DNA of 37,010 nucleotides from Paenibacillaceae bacterium (GTDB taxonomy: Bacteria; Bacillota; Clostridia; Lachnospirales; Lachnospiraceae): contig SVDS01000038.1 of assembly GCA_015057715.1 (NCBI GenBank), forward strand, positions 1-37,010, in the 5' to 3' direction. The position numbers and the translations under genes are program-made. Shown piece by piece: positions 12,551-33,178 of the stretch. The notes under the pieces are model-generated. The model did no database searches and was not told where the DNA came from. It was given only the letters and a program-made list of their open reading frames with translations. Position 1 is the first letter of the stretch; each line of letters begins with the position of its first letter.

Positions 12551-12575
12551 ATGAGCGGAACTGAGTTCCGCTCAT
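12551..12575 (-). promoter_or_regulatory. Leader hairpin L1 upstream of the pilin-like gene
   Basis: A perfect 25-bp inverted repeat has 12-bp arms (on the coding strand ATGAGCGGAACT and AGTTCCGCTCAT) around one central base. It sits in a 55-nt gap in the operon and ends 22 nt before the pilin start, with the AAAGGAAAA site in between. No T-tract follows, so it is not an intrinsic terminator. Relative to L2, the fifth pair is G-C instead of A-T, a compensated change. Confidence 0.85.
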
Positions 12576-13810: not shown

Positions 13811-13835
13811 ATGAACGGAACTGAGTTCCGTTCAT
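13811..13835 (-). promoter_or_regulatory. Leader hairpin L2 upstream of the coiled-coil gene
   Basis: A perfect 25-bp inverted repeat (coding strand arms ATGAACGGAACT and AGTTCCGTTCAT) ends 15 nt before ATG 13795, with the AAAGGG site in between. It lies in the 82-nt gap after the coupling-protein gene, the largest gap in the operon. Its fifth pair is A-T, where L1 has G-C and L3 has G-T. Confidence 0.85.
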
Positions 13836-15875: not shown

Positions 15876-15900
15876 ATGAACGGAACTGAGTTCCGCTCAT
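15876..15900 (-). promoter_or_regulatory. Leader hairpin L3 upstream of the traG transcript
   Basis: Coding-strand arms ATGAGCGGAACT and AGTTCCGTTCAT pair over 12 positions, with one G-T (G-U in RNA) at the fifth pair. The sequence is identical to the consensus unit of the 68-bp array at 22459-23159. It precedes an AAAGGAGG ribosome binding site. No T-tract follows. Confidence 0.85.
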
Positions 15901-18007: not shown

Positions 18008-18032
18008 TTATTAAATACCAGGAGAAAAATTG

Positions 18033-18446
18033 ATGAGAATAACTCAGAAAAAATCAGCTGAAAGTCCAAGAATCAATGTTGCCTTTGAGGCTGAGGCGTA
18101 TGAGCAAATACGACTGCTTGCTGCAAAGCAACATACTTCTATGTCAGAAGTCGTGAGGAACTGGGCCCTGCAGGGTCTTTCAGGAGATCTTAATGCTGAT
18201 AATATCGGATTGATTACTAATATACTCCGTACTCAGATCCAGGATGTCATGCGTCCTTCCTTTGAACGCCTGGCCTCATTAAGTGCAAAAACCTGCATTC
18301 AGTCTGGTACTGCCGCTTACCTTTCCGCCGAAGCTATATTAAAATTTGTCCCAGCTCCCCGGCAACAGGAAGTGGAAGAATCTTATGAACTGGCCAGAAA
18401 AAAAGCGATTGCATATTTAAAAGGGCGAACTAACGAAGACGAATAG
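18033..18446 (+). CDS. MobC-like ribbon-helix-helix relaxosome accessory protein (137 aa)
   Basis: I choose ATG 18033, 7 nt after AGGAG, over the adjacent TTG. Residues about 12-50 form a ribbon-helix-helix motif (PRINVAFEAEAYEQIRLLAA, then SMSEVVRNWALQGL). The rest is helical (QIQDVMRPSFERLASLSAK). Proteins of this kind bind next to oriT and help the relaxase nick. It lies directly before the relaxase gene, separated by a hairpin. Function is inferred from fold and context. Confidence 0.75.
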   Translation: MRITQKKSAESPRINVAFEAEAYEQIRLLAAKQHTSMSEVVRNWALQGLSGDLNADNIGLITNILRTQIQDVMRPSFERLASLSAKTCIQSGTAAYLSAEAILKFVPAPRQQEVEESYELARKKAIAYLKGRTNEDE

Positions 18447-18459
18447 ATATTTTTATTTC

Positions 18460-18499
18460 AATCTGCCACACTATGACAATAGCTTTGTGGCAGATTTTT
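18460..18499 (+). terminator. Hairpin with T-rich tail between the MobC-like and relaxase genes
   Basis: An 11-bp stem (AATCTGCCACA / TGTGGCAGATT) encloses a loop that can itself pair (CTAT..ATAG). TTTTA follows. It looks like an intrinsic terminator or attenuator 31 nt before the relaxase TTG start, so relaxase expression may be kept below that of its neighbours. It might alternatively belong to oriT. Confidence 0.6.
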
Positions 18500-18529
18500 A
18501 TTCAAGGAAACAAACAGGAGGAGTTAACA

Positions 18530-21500
18530 TTGCCCCATAATGTATTAATATCAAAAATAAGATGTGGTAATCCCAACAAGAAAAGTACAGCAATCCATAA
18601 TAAAAACAATTTTCTTTACATAGGAACCAGGGAAGGAACAGATCTTACCCCTTTAGAAGAAGAAAATACTGTAAAGTTTGAAAAAGAAATGGCAAAACCA
18701 GAAGACTATGTACGATACATAGCAAAAAGGTCACATAGCCATGGGCTCTTTGGCAATATACCTTTAGATAATATTGATGATGTAAGTAAAAATCTTTATA
18801 AATTATCACGAGAAAAACGACTTATTTATCGTGGGATTGTTTCTCTTGATCCGAGAGACGCTGAGGATTTAGGTTATTACGATAAATCAAAGTGGGATGC
18901 ATATATCCGCTCTGTGATTCCTGACATTGCTGACAAATTTGGTATAAGTGTTGAGAATCTACAATGGACTGCTGCCTACCATGCAGAGGCTAAACATCCA
19001 CATGTGCATTATATGTTCTGGTCCTCAAAGCCAATGGTACATGATTATTTTATTACAGAATATACACAAAATAAATGCCGGGAGCTCTTATCCGGAAAAA
19101 TGTTCGAAGATGAGCGTCAGAATGAAATTATTAGTAAAGAGGCTGCCAAAAGTTTTATTTTAGATTTTGGTAAGCAATTAATGCCTGACGAAATAAAGCG
19201 TATTAGTACTATAACTTCTGGAATTATACATGACAAAAAAATTATTCCCAAAATTACCAGAGAGCAACTTAATAAGACTACGGAAGAATTAATTAAATTA
19301 ATTCCTATACTTCCTAAAAATGGTCGACTTAATTATGCTTTCATGCCTCCGGATGTTAAAGAGCAAATCGACAAAGTTATAGATTCTATTCTAAAAAACA
19401 AGACTGTTTATCAAGAATATCAGAAATATATGAGCAGCGTAGAGAAAATGGCAATGACCTATTCTCCTTCCAAAAAAGAGCTAAAACACGCAGTTTGGGA
19501 GGATAATTCAGAGAAGGATCTTCGTGTGGACTTAGGAAATATTGTACTTAAAAATATTAGTAAAGAGCTTAAGACTCACTCTAATTTTTCTCAATATGTC
19601 GAATCCATACTGGAGCAGTTAGATGAAATCCAGCATCCCCCCATAGATGGCCACCTTGAAAAATTATCAACTGTTGACATTTCTGTGACATTAGATATTT
19701 CTAATGATAATTTTATCGCCGTTCATAATGACTTTATTTCTTCCAACTTTGATGCCTGGGAACATGATCCTTTAGAAGAAATGAGTTCTCCAGATCTTTC
19801 TTCGTCTCTTATATTTGATGAAACAGATAACAAAATAGCTACTGACGTTTCTGCCCAAATAACTGGAGACTCTAAAACGTCATTTGTCGAAAATGATAAT
19901 TATTATATTGAGTGGGATGGCACATACAAAACAGCTTTAAATGAATTATATAAAACTCATAATTATGAGAAAGCCATAGAATTACTGAATATCAGTTCTA
20001 GTAAAGGGAACCTGCTTGCAATACATGACCTGGGAAAGGTTCTTCAGCGTGGTCTTGGCTGTTCAGTAGATGAACAATTAGCTAACAGATATTATCATAA
20101 AGCACTACAGGGTTTTATGAAAGTATATAAGACAGAAAAAGACTCTTACTTAAGAGAATACGCTGCTTATAGAACTGGCAAATTATTAAATGCTGGTAAT
20201 GGCATTGAAAAGGATATAAATTTAGCCGAGCAATGGTTTATAAAAGCATATAATAATAAATATGCTCAATACTCTCTTGCCAAGATATATATTGACAAAG
20301 ATATTAAAAATGGAGAGCCATGTCATTCAAGTGAAATTTTCAGTTTATTGGAAAGTGCTTCTGAAAAAAGCCCGTATGCATCATACGAACTTGGAAATAT
20401 ATATATAAAAGGTTTCTTTGCTGATCCTGATCCTAAAAAATCATATATTTATTATAATGCTGCCATTACACAATTTAATGAAATGCTTCGAACTACATCT
20501 GATGACTCTTTAATGTACCGTGTTGGAAAAATGTATGAGCTTGGGTTGGGAACAGAAATCAATTTGCCTAAAGCCATAGAACTATTTCAAGAAGCTGGAA
20601 AACTAAAAAACACCTTTGCACTATTCTCGCTTGCTAAAATATATTTAAAAAGCAATGATGTAGAACTTCATGGAAAAGCAGTTCAAATATTGACCGATCT
20701 ACACATAGATAGACCTGATGACGATATGATCTCATATAGTTTGGGGAAAGTATATTTAAATGAGCAAACTTCTTTTTATGATGTCAATAAAGCTTTAGAA
20801 TATTTTAAAAGATCTGCTGATTGTGAAAATCAATTTGCCCAATATCAATTAGGTAAGATATATAGTTCAGAAAACTTTGGAAACCTCAATTACTCTCTTG
20901 CCATACCATACTTAGAAGCATCTGCTTTACAAGGGAATGATTTCGCAATGTATCAATTAGGTATAATTTATAAAAATTACGATTTGGAATTCTATAATAT
21001 TGACAAAGCGGTTGAATATTTTAAGAATTCTGCCGGATTAGGAAACCAGTCTGCTCAATGCCAATTGGGCATGATCTACAGTTCTCCTAAATTTGGAGTA
21101 CTGGATTATTCCCTTGCCATTTCCTGCTTAGAAGCCTCTGCTGCACTGGGGAATGATTCTGCTATCTATCAATTGGGAAAACTATACTCCAATAAAGAAA
21201 TTCCCATTTATAATATGAATTTAGCAATATCATACTTAATGGAAGCCTCAAGCAAAGGCAATTCTTTTGCACAACTACAGCTTGGTATTATTTATTTATG
21301 GGGTAAAGGAGTTAAACGTGACGTTAGTTTGGGCACTGATCTTCTTAACCAGGCAATCAATAATGGAAACCCATTTGCACAACAGATATTAGATTCCTAC
21401 AATTCATATCGTTTGCCATATGTAAATATTTCATATAAATTATTTTCAAACATATTTGATTTTATAACAAATGAAAATGACCGTAATTCAACTATTGCTG

Positions 21501-21592
21501 CAGATAAAAAATTCCGAAATTTAAGTAAAAAGGCTATGATTGAAGAACAGCTAAAAAATCCTCATAAACACAACCATGAACCTGATAAATAA
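18530..21592 (+). CDS. MobP-type relaxase with C-terminal Sel1-like repeats (1020 aa)
   Basis: The likely start is TTG 18530 (MPHNVLISKIRCGNPNKKST), 8 nt after GGAGGAG-type sequence; an earlier in-frame ATG at 18473 lies inside the hairpin. The relaxase domain spans about residues 1-250. FLYIGTREG has the candidate nucleophile Tyr30, and AYHAEAKHPHVHYMFW carries the metal-binding histidines (156, 158, 160). A helical linker covers about 250-440. The remainder, to about 990, is a row of roughly a dozen Sel1-like repeats, for example NDFAMYQLGIIYKNYDLEFY and NSFAQLQLGIIYLWGKGVKR. The relaxase nicks oriT and leads the DNA into the recipient. The repeat tail is likely a protein-binding surface, perhaps for the coupling protein (inference). 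Confidence 0.88.
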   Translation: MPHNVLISKIRCGNPNKKSTAIHNKNNFLYIGTREGTDLTPLEEENTVKFEKEMAKPEDYVRYIAKRSHSHGLFGNIPLDNIDDVSKNLYKLSREKRLIYRGIVSLDPRDAEDLGYYDKSKWDAYIRSVIPDIADKFGISVENLQWTAAYHAEAKHPHVHYMFWSSKPMVHDYFITEYTQNKCRELLSGKMFEDERQNEIISKEAAKSFILDFGKQLMPDEIKRISTITSGIIHDKKIIPKITREQLNKTTEELIKLIPILPKNGRLNYAFMPPDVKEQIDKVIDSILKNKTVYQEYQKYMSSVEKMAMTYSPSKKELKHAVWEDNSEKDLRVDLGNIVLKNISKELKTHSNFSQYVESILEQLDEIQHPPIDGHLEKLSTVDISVTLDISNDNFIAVHNDFISSNFDAWEHDPLEEMSSPDLSSSLIFDETDNKIATDVSAQITGDSKTSFVENDNYYIEWDGTYKTALNELYKTHNYEKAIELLNISSSKGNLLAIHDLGKVLQRGLGCSVDEQLANRYYHKALQGFMKVYKTEKDSYLREYAAYRTGKLLNAGNGIEKDINLAEQWFIKAYNNKYAQYSLAKIYIDKDIKNGEPCHSSEIFSLLESASEKSPYASYELGNIYIKGFFADPDPKKSYIYYNAAITQFNEMLRTTSDDSLMYRVGKMYELGLGTEINLPKAIELFQEAGKLKNTFALFSLAKIYLKSNDVELHGKAVQILTDLHIDRPDDDMISYSLGKVYLNEQTSFYDVNKALEYFKRSADCENQFAQYQLGKIYSSENFGNLNYSLAIPYLEASALQGNDFAMYQLGIIYKNYDLEFYNIDKAVEYFKNSAGLGNQSAQCQLGMIYSSPKFGVLDYSLAISCLEASAALGNDSAIYQLGKLYSNKEIPIYNMNLAISYLMEASSKGNSFAQLQLGIIYLWGKGVKRDVSLGTDLLNQAINNGNPFAQQILDSYNSYRLPYVNISYKLFSNIFDFITNENDRNSTIAADKKFRNLSKKAMIEEQLKNPHKHNHEPDK

Positions 21593-21626: not shown

Positions 21627-21985
21627 ATTGTTAAAAAATGCAAACTCTCCTCTTCTCAACCGAACTCAGATCCTATCGTTAATCTTTACTTGTCCTCCAA
21701 AACCTTCTATGAACGAAACTCTTTTTAAAATGTTACAGCGATAAAAGCTGATAAAATCTAGCATTAACAACTCTAAGTATTTAAGGTGTTACATAATTTT
21801 GTTCTAAAACTTCCATTTGTAACACATGTATTTCATACATTAAGCCTTGATAGTTACAGGCTTTGCCTGTAATCTGTCCCTCCGGGCGTGTAACGCCCTA
21901 TTCCTGCCATAAATTCTGTATGCTTTACCGCATAGTTTATGGGCAGGAGATGGCATTTTCATCGGGCGGGTCGGCCTTGCTTTTC

Positions 21986-22118
21986 GTCGTCGGCATTGTG
22001 GGTATGTGGGGAAGGCAGCTGTTTTTAGAAGGGTGGACAAATCTGTTCATAACTATTGGATAGTTATGAACGGGTTTATCCAGGCTTCGTTAGCTGTCTT
22101 GTCCATATATCCACGATG
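21986..22118 (+). repeat. Long hairpin module, copy 1
   Basis: The outer arms 21994-22020 and 22092-22118 pair over 27 positions with five G-U pairs and one G-G mismatch. Inside, 22045-22071 is a perfect 12-bp stem with a TGG loop. A second module with about the same arms follows some 300 bp later. Confidence 0.75.
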
Positions 22119-22280
22119 TTTTTACTGGGGCAGGAAATTACCCAGGGCGGAAAGGATGTCTCCATGCTTCTTGGAGTCATTCTTTTTGACCGTACTTTTA
22201 GCCATACCCCCGCCTAGTTTTATGCCGGAGTTCTTTTCTCCGGTCTCTCGCCGTTCAGCCCATGAAGCTGAGCGGCAACC

Positions 22281-22429
22281 GTCGTCGACATTGTGGGTAT
22301 GTGGGCAAGGCTGCTGTTTTTCGAAGTGTGGGGAAAATTGTTTATAACAATCTGATGTTTATTTCATCGGATTGTTATGAACGGTTTTCTCCATACTTTG
22401 TTAGCTGCCTTGTCCATATATCCACGATG
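22281..22429 (+). repeat. Long hairpin module, copy 2
   Basis: The outer arms 22289-22315 and 22403-22429 pair over 27 positions with four G-U pairs and one T-T mismatch. Relative to copy 1, a G-G becomes C-G and a G-U becomes G-C. The inner stem 22340-22382 has 18 continuous pairs, including two U-G, and differs from that of copy 1. So the arms are duplicated while the inner stem has diverged but kept pairing. Confidence 0.75.
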
Positions 22430-22458
22430 CTATTCAACCTTCCTAAATACGTTCTCAA

Positions 22459-23215
22459 GAGCAGAACTTAGTTCCGTTCATCAGCTCCAGCGTTCTCTCC
22501 CGGAATCTTTCAAAATGCTTTCCCATGAGCGGAACTCAGTTCCGTTCATCAGCTCCTACATCTTCTCCTAGCATCTTTCAAAATGTTTTCCCATGAGCGG
22601 AACTCAGTTCCGTTCATCAGCTCCAGCTTCTTCTCTTGGAATATTCCTAAATACTTTACCATGGGCGGAACTCAGTTCCGTTCATCAACTCCAACTTCTT
22701 CTCCTGGAATCTTCCTAAATACTTTACCATGGACGGAACTCAGTTCCGTTCATCAGCCCAAGCTTCTCCTCTTGGAATCTTTATAAATACTTTACCATGA
22801 GCGGAACTCAGTTCCGTTCATCAGCTCCAGCTTCTTCTCCCGAAATCTTACTAAATGCTTTACCATGAGCGGAACTCAATTCTACTCATAAGCTCCAGCC
22901 TCTTCTCTTGAAATATTCCTAAATGCTTTTCCATAAACGGAACCCAGTTCCATTCATCAGCTCCGGCTTCTTCTCTTGGAATATTCCTATATACTTATCC
23001 ACGAACGGAACTCAGTTCCATTCATCAGCACCAACTTCTTCTCTTGGAATATTCCTATATGCTTTTCTATGAGCGGAACTCAGTTCCGTTCATCAGCTCC
23101 GACTTCTCCTCTTGGAATCTTCCTATATTTTTGTTCATGAGCGGAACTCAGTTCCGTTCATCAGTAACGGTTTTTTCTCTCGGAATCTTACTAAATACTC
23201 TCCCATAAGCAGAAT
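22459..23215 (+). repeat. Tandem array: 11 hairpin units and a remnant at an exact 68-bp period
   Basis: Palindrome cores (21 bp, arms GAGCGGAACT and AGTTCCGTTC, central C) begin at 22459, 22527, 22595, 22663, 22731, 22799, 22867, 22935, 23003, 23071 and 23139, each exactly 68 bp after the last. A degenerate half unit sits in phase at 23207. Units 2, 3, 6, 10 and 11 have the identical core. Units 4 and 5 vary with retained G-U pairing. Units 1, 7, 8 and 9 have one to three mismatches. The spacers are similar but not identical (around CAGCTCCAGCTTCTTCTC and GGAATATTCC), unlike CRISPR spacers. The period is not a multiple of three, so it is not a protein repeat. The core is the same as leader hairpins L1-L3. 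Confidence 0.95.
23154..23176 (+). terminator. Terminator-like stem at the end of the hairpin array
   Basis: After the eleventh core the spacer is altered so that CCGTT (23154) pairs with AACGG (23166), followed by six T. Other spacers have CTCCAGCTTCTT here and cannot form this. It suggests that a plus-strand transcript of the array stops after the last complete unit. The stem is only 5 bp and competes with the core hairpin. Confidence 0.45.
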
Positions 23216-25908: not shown

Positions 25909-27363
25909 CTAAATTCCCTTGTTTATACCAGCAAGTATCAAAGCATCATAATCATATTCTCTCTGAGGAAAGTTCTGAAAATCATTCTTCTTTTCATGTT
26001 GTTTAATTGGCAATCCTTTTTTCTGCTTAACTCCATCACCTTGAAGCATGACATTATAAATACAAGCTTGCATATATCGTATGATATTTTTTATATGCCT
26101 GGTCGATTGAGCGGAATAGTAATCGCTTAAAACTCTCCTGCAAAAATCCTCAAAATAATCTTTACTGATGATATTCTTTAATTTCTCAATGATCTCTAAG
26201 CTGCTTATGCTTAACCCACTATATTGCATATTATTAATATAGCACAGTTCGCACAGTGTAGTCATGAAGATTTTATTGATTTCCAGGAATTTACTAATTT
26301 CTTCCTCCTCTGTAAAAAGCTGGTCTAAGGCACCGGCTTTTTTGATGTAATCTACCAATTCATTTGCACTCATATTAAATACATTAGAGGATGAAGAGGA
26401 TGTTAATAAAGTGTTTATGGTTAAAGTACTGTTTATGTTAATGTCCGAAATCTCGGTATCCGAAAAATTGGTATGCGGTGATACCTCTACCGTGTCCGAA
26501 ATTTTGGTACCCGGTGACGTTTTTACTATATCTTGTGCTATATCATTCATTTTTTCAATATTTAGCGTGTCCGAAATTTTGGTACTCGGTAGATCTCCCG
26601 TGTCCGAAATTTTGGTATCCGGTGATTTCCCCGTGTCCGAAATTTTGGTATCCGGTGACTTCCCCGTGTCCGAAATTTTGGTACCCGGTAAGCAATCTAC
26701 ATCTGGGTTATCATTTAAATAATAATCATTAACAGCCATTCGTCCGCTATCTCGCCTTTGGACCACAGTAATATAATTAAGATCAATGAGCTGCTTGTAA
26801 TAGCGCTGATATGTATTATGGCTAATACCTAAGTGCCTTAGAATGTCGTCTTTACTTGGAAAAGCACTATTTCCACTACCTGTCCATACACAGAAATAAG
26901 CATAAATACCTTTGGCTTTTATATTTAGACGATAATCAGTCATAACCATATATGGCATCCAACCATATCCTGCTGATTTTAACCCTCCAAACCGTATTCT
27001 GCTATAGGTGGATTTGTCAATTGTAGAGGATAGGGATTCAAATTTTTTAGGGTTTGAAACAAGTGTATAAATATTTTTCTTAAAACCATTGGAGGAATTT
27101 TCCTGCTTTGTAGTAACATAATTTTGTACAATTAACATTTTAAAATGTTTATAGAACGTATCCTTATTGATACCAAGATATTCTACTATTGTATCACGTC
27201 CAGGAAAAACTGTTGTCCCCATACCAGCCAGGCTTGCAAAATAGGTATAAATACATTTTGCTTCCAGCGTGAGATCTGGATCTAACATTACATATTTAGG
27301 CAGTATTCCTCCGCCTTTAGCACCTACGCCCTCTATCTTTAAAATATCCTGTATCTCTGCCAT
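25909..27363 (-). CDS. Replication-initiator-like protein with two winged-helix domains and in-gene repeats
   Basis: The 484 residues contain two consecutive HTH_36-like units: about 20-95 (LTLEAKCIYTYFASLAG to YLGINKDTFYKHFKMLIVQN) and about 140-215 (LNIKAKGIYAYFCVWTG to HLGISHNTYQRYYKQLIDLN). A linker at about 228-305 has repeated TKISDTGKSPD units. The C-terminal helical domain (about 330-450) looks DnaD/RepA-like in composition. Such proteins are found with parAB in Firmicute plasmids and mobile elements. The DNA of the linker is itself an iteron-like array, as in RepA_N plasmids where the origin lies inside rep. The role in replication is inferred. Confidence 0.6.
   Translation of the reverse strand: MAEIQDILKIEGVGAKGGGILPKYVMLDPDLTLEAKCIYTYFASLAGMGTTVFPGRDTIVEYLGINKDTFYKHFKMLIVQNYVTTKQENSSNGFKKNIYTLVSNPKKFESLSSTIDKSTYSRIRFGGLKSAGYGWMPYMVMTDYRLNIKAKGIYAYFCVWTGSGNSAFPSKDDILRHLGISHNTYQRYYKQLIDLNYITVVQRRDSGRMAVNDYYLNDNPDVDCLPGTKISDTGKSPDTKISDTGKSPDTKISDTGDLPSTKISDTLNIEKMNDIAQDIVKTSPGTKISDTVEVSPHTNFSDTEISDININSTLTINTLLTSSSSSNVFNMSANELVDYIKKAGALDQLFTEEEEISKFLEINKIFMTTLCELCYINNMQYSGLSISSLEIIEKLKNIISKDYFEDFCRRVLSDYYSAQSTRHIKNIIRYMQACIYNVMLQGDGVKQKKGLPIKQHEKKNDFQNFPQREYDYDALILAGINKGI
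26442..26689 (+). repeat. Iteron-like direct repeats inside the initiator-like gene
   Basis: Plus-strand copies of a 24-bp motif (GTGTCCGAAATTTTGG, then TAYYCGGT) start at 26492, 26567, 26600, 26633 and 26666. The last four are exactly 33 bp apart. Two degenerate copies lie at about 26442 and 26458. They encode the TKISDT repeats. DNA conservation is higher than needed for the protein alone, for example in the identical third positions, which suggests a binding site or origin. Confidence 0.8.
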
Positions 27364-32317: not shown

Positions 32318-33178
32318 TTACATTGCTTCCTTTATGGTATCTCTTAAATATTTCTCAGTCTGGGTATCTAAAATGCCCATCTCCAATAACAAGTTACAGT
32401 AATCACTTAATGCTCTGGAATTTGGATATGTAAGCAATGGCTTAAATTCCCTTTCTATGTCATTGATTTTTGTATCTAAACGTATCGCTGTATCAAAAAA
32501 CATATTGCTCATGTTCGCTGTAAATATCTTGCTGGTTTCCTTAAATGCATTGGTAATAATATTTGCCTGGGTGATAAATGCTCCCAGAAACTGAGGGCTT
32601 TCTAAATCATGTTCCTCTTTTATATAGATAATGCTTTTCAATGTTTCCTGCAGCCCCTCATAAGAATACTGCTCACACTTAATCGGAATAATAATAAAAT
32701 CAGAGGCGAAAATGCTATTTACCGTCAAAATATTATTTGCCGGTGCATTGTCAATCAGTATATAGTCATACTCATGGGATATAGCTTTTAATGCCCGTTT
32801 TAAAATTGTATTATTATTGCCTGTATTGCTAACCACCAGATCCTGAGTCAATTTGTGCCTGTGGCTGCTGGGTAGAATAGAGAGATTTTCAATGTACGTT
32901 TTTCTTATCAAGCTCTTTACCTCTTCACCATTCCGATAGCGGAACCGATACAGCTCTGCAATATGGTAATCCACGCTTTCAGGTAGCAGTATTCCATTTT
33001 CAATCTCCGGACTGTCCTTCTGAAATAAATGAAACTGCATTGATGTATTCCCCTGCGGGTCCTGATCAACGATAAGAGTTTTTTTACCTAAGTAAGCCAG
33101 AAGCTCACCTAATACTACTGTAGTGGTGGTTTTGCCAACTCCACCTTTGTTACTGTTAATGCTCCCAATAACTGCCAT
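32318..33178 (-). CDS. parA: ParA-family partition ATPase
   Basis: The 286 residues start MAVIGSINSNKGGVGKTTTT; the deviant Walker A motif is KGGVGKTTT (11-19). Further landmarks are the A' motif LIVDQDPQGNTS and the Walker B-like strand YDYILIDNAPAN. A ribosome binding site (AGGAGG) precedes the ATG. It is transcribed with parB, and the pair would stabilise the element when it is excised or replicating. Presence of parAB and an initiator-like protein suggests a plasmid-like phase. Confidence 0.93.
   Translation of the reverse strand: MAVIGSINSNKGGVGKTTTTVVLGELLAYLGKKTLIVDQDPQGNTSMQFHLFQKDSPEIENGILLPESVDYHIAELYRFRYRNGEEVKSLIRKTYIENLSILPSSHRHKLTQDLVVSNTGNNNTILKRALKAISHEYDYILIDNAPANNILTVNSIFASDFIIIPIKCEQYSYEGLQETLKSIIYIKEEHDLESPQFLGAFITQANIITNAFKETSKIFTANMSNMFFDTAIRLDTKINDIEREFKPLLTYPNSRALSDYCNLLLEMGILDTQTEKYLRDTIKEAM

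Follow-up and report, generated by a model that had tools for sequence, protein, structure and literature searches.

Introduction

The centromere sopC of the F plasmid consists of twelve 43-bp repeats with a 16-bp inverted repeat in each (PMC9178275, available excerpt). The ParB-family protein KorB of RK2 has dispersed palindromic operators and represses replication and transfer genes (PMC11790492, available excerpt); the operators are 12 palindromic 13-mers (PMC10954446, available excerpt). The same excerpt describes many parS copies across the backbone of IncC plasmids, one of them before parAB, and copies on SGI1, which lacks par genes (PMC10954446). EGeRS1 of pLS20 comprises regions of approximately 600 bp with inverted repeats that are GC-richer than the element, contain an internal duplication and are very stable when folded (PMC8708921, available excerpt).

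Here we describe an array of palindromes in a stretch of 37,010 bp, the whole of which is referred to as the window. A first-pass annotation had read the array as a candidate RNA sponge or protein-binding array, with a DNA role such as a centromere as the main alternative. We consider it to be a plasmid-type centromere, with a probability of about three in four: a parS cluster with one palindrome per 68-bp unit, whose duplex would be bound by a ParB-like protein working with ParA, while three single palindrome copies elsewhere would be extra ParB sites repressing or insulating the transfer operon.

Like sopC, as far as the excerpt describes it (PMC9178275), the window contains tandem repeats with one palindrome each, and the element that carries them encodes ParA and a ParB-like protein. 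It differs from sopC in the period (68 bp, and 54 bp in the related array of G167), in the palindrome itself, in the location of the array kilobases away from parAB and beside oriT, and in the single palindrome copies at its transfer genes. The 13-bp core of the window, with S as the centre base, is in our view similar to the KorB operator. Unlike KorB/RK2, the window adds a tandem array, and its sites are located between stop codon and ribosome-binding site. The tandem array also distinguishes it from IncC parS, for which none appears in the excerpt (PMC10954446).

Results and Discussion

Organization of the element and the array

The element was found to encode VirD4-like and VirB4-like proteins, a DUF6674 protein, ArdC, a tyrosine recombinase, a MobL relaxase with Sel1 repeats, an RHH-like protein, a DnaD_N/HTH_36 initiator, ParA and a ParB-like protein (Table 1). 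The array is located between converging genes, beside the probable oriT.

Table 1. Features of the window discussed in the text.
Feature	Position	Strand	Remarks
Single palindrome copy	12551..12575	-	In the approximately 55-bp gap from the DUF6674 gene stop (12584) to the next start (12528)
Single palindrome copy	13811..13835	-	Between VirD4-like gene stop and DUF6674 gene start, 5′ of the DUF6674 ribosome-binding site
Single palindrome copy	15876..15900	-	Between VirD4-like gene and divergent integrase gene
RHH relaxosome protein, weakly assigned	18030..18446		19.3 bits versus Pfam cut-off 26
MobL relaxase with Sel1 repeats	18473..21592	+	Upstream of the oriT-like segment
Probable oriT segment	21846..21918	+	Pair of short inverted repeats followed by CTATTCCTGCC; conserved in further Lachnospiraceae, close to RHH-like genes; predicted function
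Palindrome array, 11.4 x 68-bp units	22439..23214	.	Each unit with 25-bp palindrome ATGARCGGAACTSAGTTCCGYTCAT; proposed parS cluster
DnaD_N/HTH_36 replication-initiator-like protein	25909..27363	-	Internal 33-bp repeats, 26566-26689
ParB-like protein, 469 aa	30896..32305	-	ESGERRTRA motif, predicted HTH, long coiled coil; proposed array binder
ParA-family ATPase	32318..33178	-	ParA_partition E 5.7e-21, under curated cut-off

Tandem Repeats Finder (TRF) reported the array with a period of 68, 11.4 copies, 83% matches and 0% indels, in agreement with the indel-free structure noted in the first-pass annotation, and the core starts at 22459 + 68n (n = 0 to 10) with an in-phase remnant at 23207 were found in the sequence as annotated. 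The exact 68-bp period holds in the window but is not general; the period was 67–70 in G017 and 67–82 in G010. At no more than two mismatches, GGAACTNAGTTCC occurred 15 times in the window compared to 1.02 occurrences expected, and none of 100 shuffles reached 15 (largest count, 5). The exact 25-mer ATGAGCGGAACTCAGTTCCGTTCAT was present in 5 of the 11 units. Clustered palindromic sites, as in a sopC-like type Ia ParABS centromere, are thus a feature of the array.

Several other identities were considered for the array. A known Rfam RNA was ruled out, since only two tRNAs in the window scored above the Rfam gathering score and the array matched no family above it; weak miRNA and snoRNA matches all fell below that score. 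A genome-wide REP repeat was also ruled out, since the palindrome was found at only 16 places in the whole genome (5.4 Mb, no more than three mismatches), 14 of these on the contig of the window. BLASTn of the sequence against plasmids or phages gave no match, and an array shared with these was dropped. Type III toxin-antitoxin repeats were considered on general grounds and set aside. Replication iterons were set aside because the 33-bp repeats inside the rep gene are a better candidate; RepA_N origins are located inside rep. Comparable repeats were also seen within rep of G167 and, in G006, at the rep position.

Three further copies of the palindrome, absent from the first-pass annotation, were detected on the minus strand; each lies on the 5′ side of a transfer gene, close to a ribosome-binding site (Table 1). 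Dispersed palindromic sites at transfer genes, as known for KorB operators, were thus found in the window, and also in G210 (see below), and were absent from G167:C14.

ParA, the ParB-like protein and conserved gene order

By its E-value, a ParA-family ATPase is encoded on the same element as the array, as in sopC-like systems (Table 1). The adjacent 469-aa protein had no ParB match by sequence in Pfam, NCBIfam or PDB. It contains a GERRxRA motif, which we take to be a mark of the ParB family, and ESGERRxRA was invariant across six aligned relatives. The AlphaFold2 model of the protein had a mean pLDDT of 62.8, with residues 1–118 mostly below 50; fold matches of this low-confidence model in PDB were all to ParB, Noc, Spo0J or KorB at ranks 1–32, with a best E-value of 2.4e-3 and none below 1e-3. 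The distance from the array to parB is 7.7 kb, and no parS-like palindrome cluster was found beside parAB in the window.

The same gene order as in the window (ParA, ParB, rep, array, oriT-like segment, relaxase, RHH-like gene, integrase, VirD4) was found in G167:C14, from another genus. The G167:C14 array (29.6 x 54 bp by TRF, approximately 30–31 units) is located between the relaxase/oriT-like segment and rep-parB-parA and has the half-site CGGAAC in common with the window, while identity to the window was 49% for VirD4 and 62% for VirB4. The array palindrome of G167:C14 was not present at its transfer genes at up to three mismatches; three 3-mismatch matches were located in large ORFs further on. 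No second syntenic array was found in G006, where the element is split over two contigs, and none within 20 kb of the ParB of G010:C44, whose gene is located at a contig end.

Co-occurrence of palindrome and ParB was analyzed in 14 DUF6674 regions, 13 from a search with matches in 25 of 299 genomes and one from G012. An element-wide 25-bp palindrome was present in six of them. All six contained a ParB-like ORF (split in two in G175), compared to one of the eight regions without the palindrome (Fisher p 0.005), although the regions differed in length: five of the six with a palindrome spanned 40 kb, and seven of the eight without spanned no more than 20 kb. At least three copies of one palindrome were found in 14 of 18 ParB stretches and in 3 of 18 non-ParB stretches (p 0.0006); the stretches are not independent, and the p-values serve as a guide only. 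One of the three palindrome-positive non-ParB stretches, L058, belongs to an element whose ParB is located on another contig. An exact recurrent palindrome was absent from four ParB stretches (G319, G192C7, L176, and L177), and in G192:C7 three palindrome copies were present at one mismatch.

Palindromes in elements with related ParB proteins

A profile search with the ParB-like protein among 397 genomes of the family (E 1e-15) found seven, including the own genome and G167. The five new relatives (G383, G032, G210, G226, and G124) have a ParB that differs from that of the window and palindromes of their own. In G383, TGAACTSAGTTCA was present in eight exact copies in 40 kb, six of them directly upstream of parA, and in G032 the same palindrome was present in four exact copies, all upstream of parA. 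The core GAACTSAGTTC is common to the window, G383, and G032, while the reversed control motif gave no match in any of the stretches listed; the palindrome core is thus found at the parAB operon of relatives, as expected for a sopC-like centromere. The centre base was S in both orientations at 12 of 12 sites in G383 and G032. In G210, nine places matched GGGTGACTTNAAGTCACCC (seven of them exactly); they are located in the transfer region and next to parAB and the relaxase. G226 contained three exact copies of TGGGAAGTACTTCCCA, one inside parB and one inside rep, and G124 three exact copies of TGAAGCGCTTCA.

For exact palindromes, eight regions were each dinucleotide-shuffled 30 times, and the observed top count was never reached (shuffle maximum, 2). 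When two mismatches were allowed, G383, G032, and G124 had counts no higher than the highest among 200 random palindromes; only the exact counts stand out.

Alternatively, the array could serve a different DNA-binding protein encoded by the element, such as the RHH relaxosome protein; this protein would then occupy sites next to oriT and act as a repressor of transfer genes. Array and oriT-like segment are separated by approximately 0.5 kb in the window and by approximately 0.3 kb in G167, and RHH genes adjoin the relaxase in both. However, the RHH assignment falls short of the Pfam cut-off (Table 1), and the palindromes of G383 and G032 cluster upstream of parA. We regard binding by such a protein as unlikely. 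The clusters upstream of parAB, together with ParA and the ParB-like protein on the element, support the protein-binding array named in the first-pass annotation and the centromere that it had listed as its alternative.

Four of the G210 sites (15289, 16704, 25193, and 29524) are located between a stop codon and a ribosome-binding site. The same unusual placement applies to one of the G226 sites and to many sites in other elements. Conjugative elements of G086, G192, G012, G196, G175, and G167 (L138–L147, L151) contained 5–20 ACTTCGGGNCAANNTTGNCCCGAAGT-like palindromes each, many of them placed between stop codon and ribosome-binding site.

DNA sites or RNA hairpins

The first-pass annotation proposed an RNA sponge as one of its readings. 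In the form considered here, hairpins of a plus-strand transcript would titrate an RNA-binding protein that controls transfer-gene leaders with the same hairpin. Like CsrB-type sponges, the window combines a series of hairpins with copies of the hairpin in the leaders of candidate targets: the 25-mer is located directly 5′ of three transfer-gene ribosome-binding sites, in sense and with the loop of the array plus strand. This location still speaks for a role at the RNA level. An RNA hairpin is expected to tolerate G.U and to avoid A.C. Pairing of the units, as annotated, was seen at all 11 positions in 7 of the 11 units, among them units 4 and 5, which were correctly described as keeping their pairing, but the other four contain unpaired positions. 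The G-T pair annotated as the recurring non-Watson-Crick pair does recur (10 G.U in the window array), but A.C was nearly as frequent (7).

When the founder position was included, plus-strand G.U exceeded A.C in the three long Lacrimispora arrays (10:7 in the window, G000; 26:3 in G017; 17:1 in G010), as expected for a sponge. When it was excluded, the distinct units of these arrays contained 10 G.U, 11 A.C, and 5 other mismatches. The short arrays of G014 and G006 together showed a plus-strand G.U:A.C ratio of 3:9 with the founder position included. At pair 5, G.T was present in 38 of 46 units of G000, G017, and G010 compared to A.C in five of six units of G014 and G006; since some arrays have G.T and others A.C, this pair gives no indication of which strand is used. 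Among the 31 units of the G167:C14 array, a G.A mismatch in the stem was found in 12 and C.C in 7, with one G.U overall, and the palindromes of six other elements had 35 G.U and 28 A.C over 91 sites. The palindrome arms are not wobble-biased. Arm mutations without compensation in homologous arrays, named in the first-pass annotation as evidence against an RNA, are therefore present in G167 and, outside one position, in the three long Lacrimispora arrays, and hairpin pairing was not conserved between homologous arrays in the manner of CsrB.

Folded as RNA, the array was more stable than shuffled sequences, with a lower z-score on the plus strand (-14.5) than on the minus strand (-11.3), but its minimum free energy (MFE) was lower on the minus strand with RNA and DNA parameters alike. 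A promoter scan detected no plus-strand sigma-70-type site between 21594 and the array. The window also differs from CsrB in that GGA lies in the stem and in that related palindromes go with parAB. On balance, the arm, promoter and folding results are more consistent with DNA sites than with RNA hairpins. The sponge is not supported by these data; the arm mismatches, the stem breaks in G167 (where the transfer genes also lack the motif), and the promoter scan rule it out as the best reading, and we consider it quite improbable.

Among 66 sites in four elements, the loop showed a sense bias (ACT 49, AGT 11). The sites are orthologous and are therefore not independent evidence for RNA, so loop orientation was dropped as a sign of RNA. 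A ParB-based centromere leaves the sense-biased loops and the placement between stop codon and ribosome-binding site unexplained, and given these loops, the palindromic sites may also act as RNA hairpins.

The neighboring block with the probable oriT

DNA of 21840–22440, or part of it, had matches in 7 of 24 other members of the genus and in 6 of 396 other members of the family; four of the six family-level matches were to the oriT-like segment. An RHH-like ORF, assigned by eye, was present within approximately 1 kb at six of seven such loci (C-terminal part only in L084) and absent in L067 (G006). The oriT-like segment is common to MobL-type elements of other Lachnospiraceae genera.

The MFE of block 21850–22450 was -298 kcal/mol for the plus strand compared to -211 for the minus strand. 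Giant hairpins of 53 and 63 pairs are located at 21993–22118 and 22288–22429, beside the oriT-like segment (three such hairpins in G017), and matched no Rfam family. Seven copies of the giant hairpins from three elements contained 79 G.U pairs and 4 isolated A.C mismatches, and in their alignment, whose rows are closely related, most one-sided changes retained a standard pair and one pair was changed on both sides. The G.U excess and the pair-keeping changes indicate that the block, unlike the array, was shaped as a single strand, and the 21.85–22.44 kb block is a single-strand structure separate from the array. The single-strand form may be either RNA or transferred DNA, because DNA parameters show the same plus-strand bias.

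The structured block, with this bias and its location beside the probable oriT, raises the question whether the array, too, folds as single-stranded DNA on the transferred strand and works together with the giant hairpins while the element becomes established in the recipient. The array itself, however, is without the plus-strand bias, its MFE being lower on the minus strand with both parameter sets, which makes such a role very improbable.

In kind, block 21850–22450 resembles the EGeRS1 regions of pLS20 as described in the available excerpt (PMC8708921). Unlike EGeRS1, it is not followed by a gene on its own strand, and BLASTn against the plasmid collection gave no match. An EGeRS1 identity was dropped for the array, since it is the neighboring block that EGeRS1 fits in kind.

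Proposed function and significance

In the proposed centromere, the array would serve as the loading site for ParB. Through the action of ParA on the resulting ParB-DNA complex, the element would be kept in both daughter cells when extrachromosomal. The three copies at the transfer genes would be additional ParB sites, at which ParB would repress or insulate the transfer operon in the manner of KorB on RK2. ParB binding, the role of the array in partition and the regulation of transfer genes by the single copies are predictions.

More tentatively, and with odds that we place below even, Lachnospiraceae conjugative elements may share a ParB/KorB-type partition and silencing network, in which the palindrome code is specific to the element type and the sites are located between a stop codon and the next ribosome-binding site. 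ParB bound there and, in some elements, at an oriT-proximal array would couple segregation, transfer-gene silencing and DNA transfer.

If correct, the present reading identifies the centromere in a set of MobL conjugative elements with a ParB-like protein that Pfam and NCBIfam miss, supplies a palindrome that can be tested for several element types, and removes one candidate RNA sponge. It would also suggest that ParB-family proteins may control Gram-positive transfer operons much like KorB on RK2, with the intercistronic site placement being unusual. Such palindromes in Lachnospiraceae elements were not found described in titles and abstract openings, a coverage that leaves out most subscription journals.

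Palindromes in other genomes

The pattern ARCGGAACTSAGTTCCGYT was found outside the genus in none of 397 other Bacillota genomes drawn. Four genomes (G001, G002, G024, and G014) carry the palindrome with no detected ParB of the window kind. By analogy with SGI1 and the parS function of IncC plasmids, these may borrow the protein; they may also be a sign of another binder.

In other Lacrimispora elements (L053, L054, L055, L059, and L060), single palindrome copies were seen near HicB-like, toxin-antitoxin-like and ssb-like genes. Short arrays with a period of 60–62 were present in L051 (9888–10094, four palindromes) and L052 (9554–9640, two palindromes), where they adjoin a truncated peroxiredoxin gene, which flanks the element of the window, and are located upstream of a collagen-like gene. 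These are possibly remnants of an earlier element.

Among viral stretches, 11 matched a palindrome pattern compared to one for the control pattern, several of the 11 being redundant contigs. One aquatic-type phage contig (L044, 466–3262) contained six GGAACTCAGTTCC hairpins in one orientation, one of them directly 5′ of a ribosome-binding site; the phage palindromes and the array of the window are probably unrelated.
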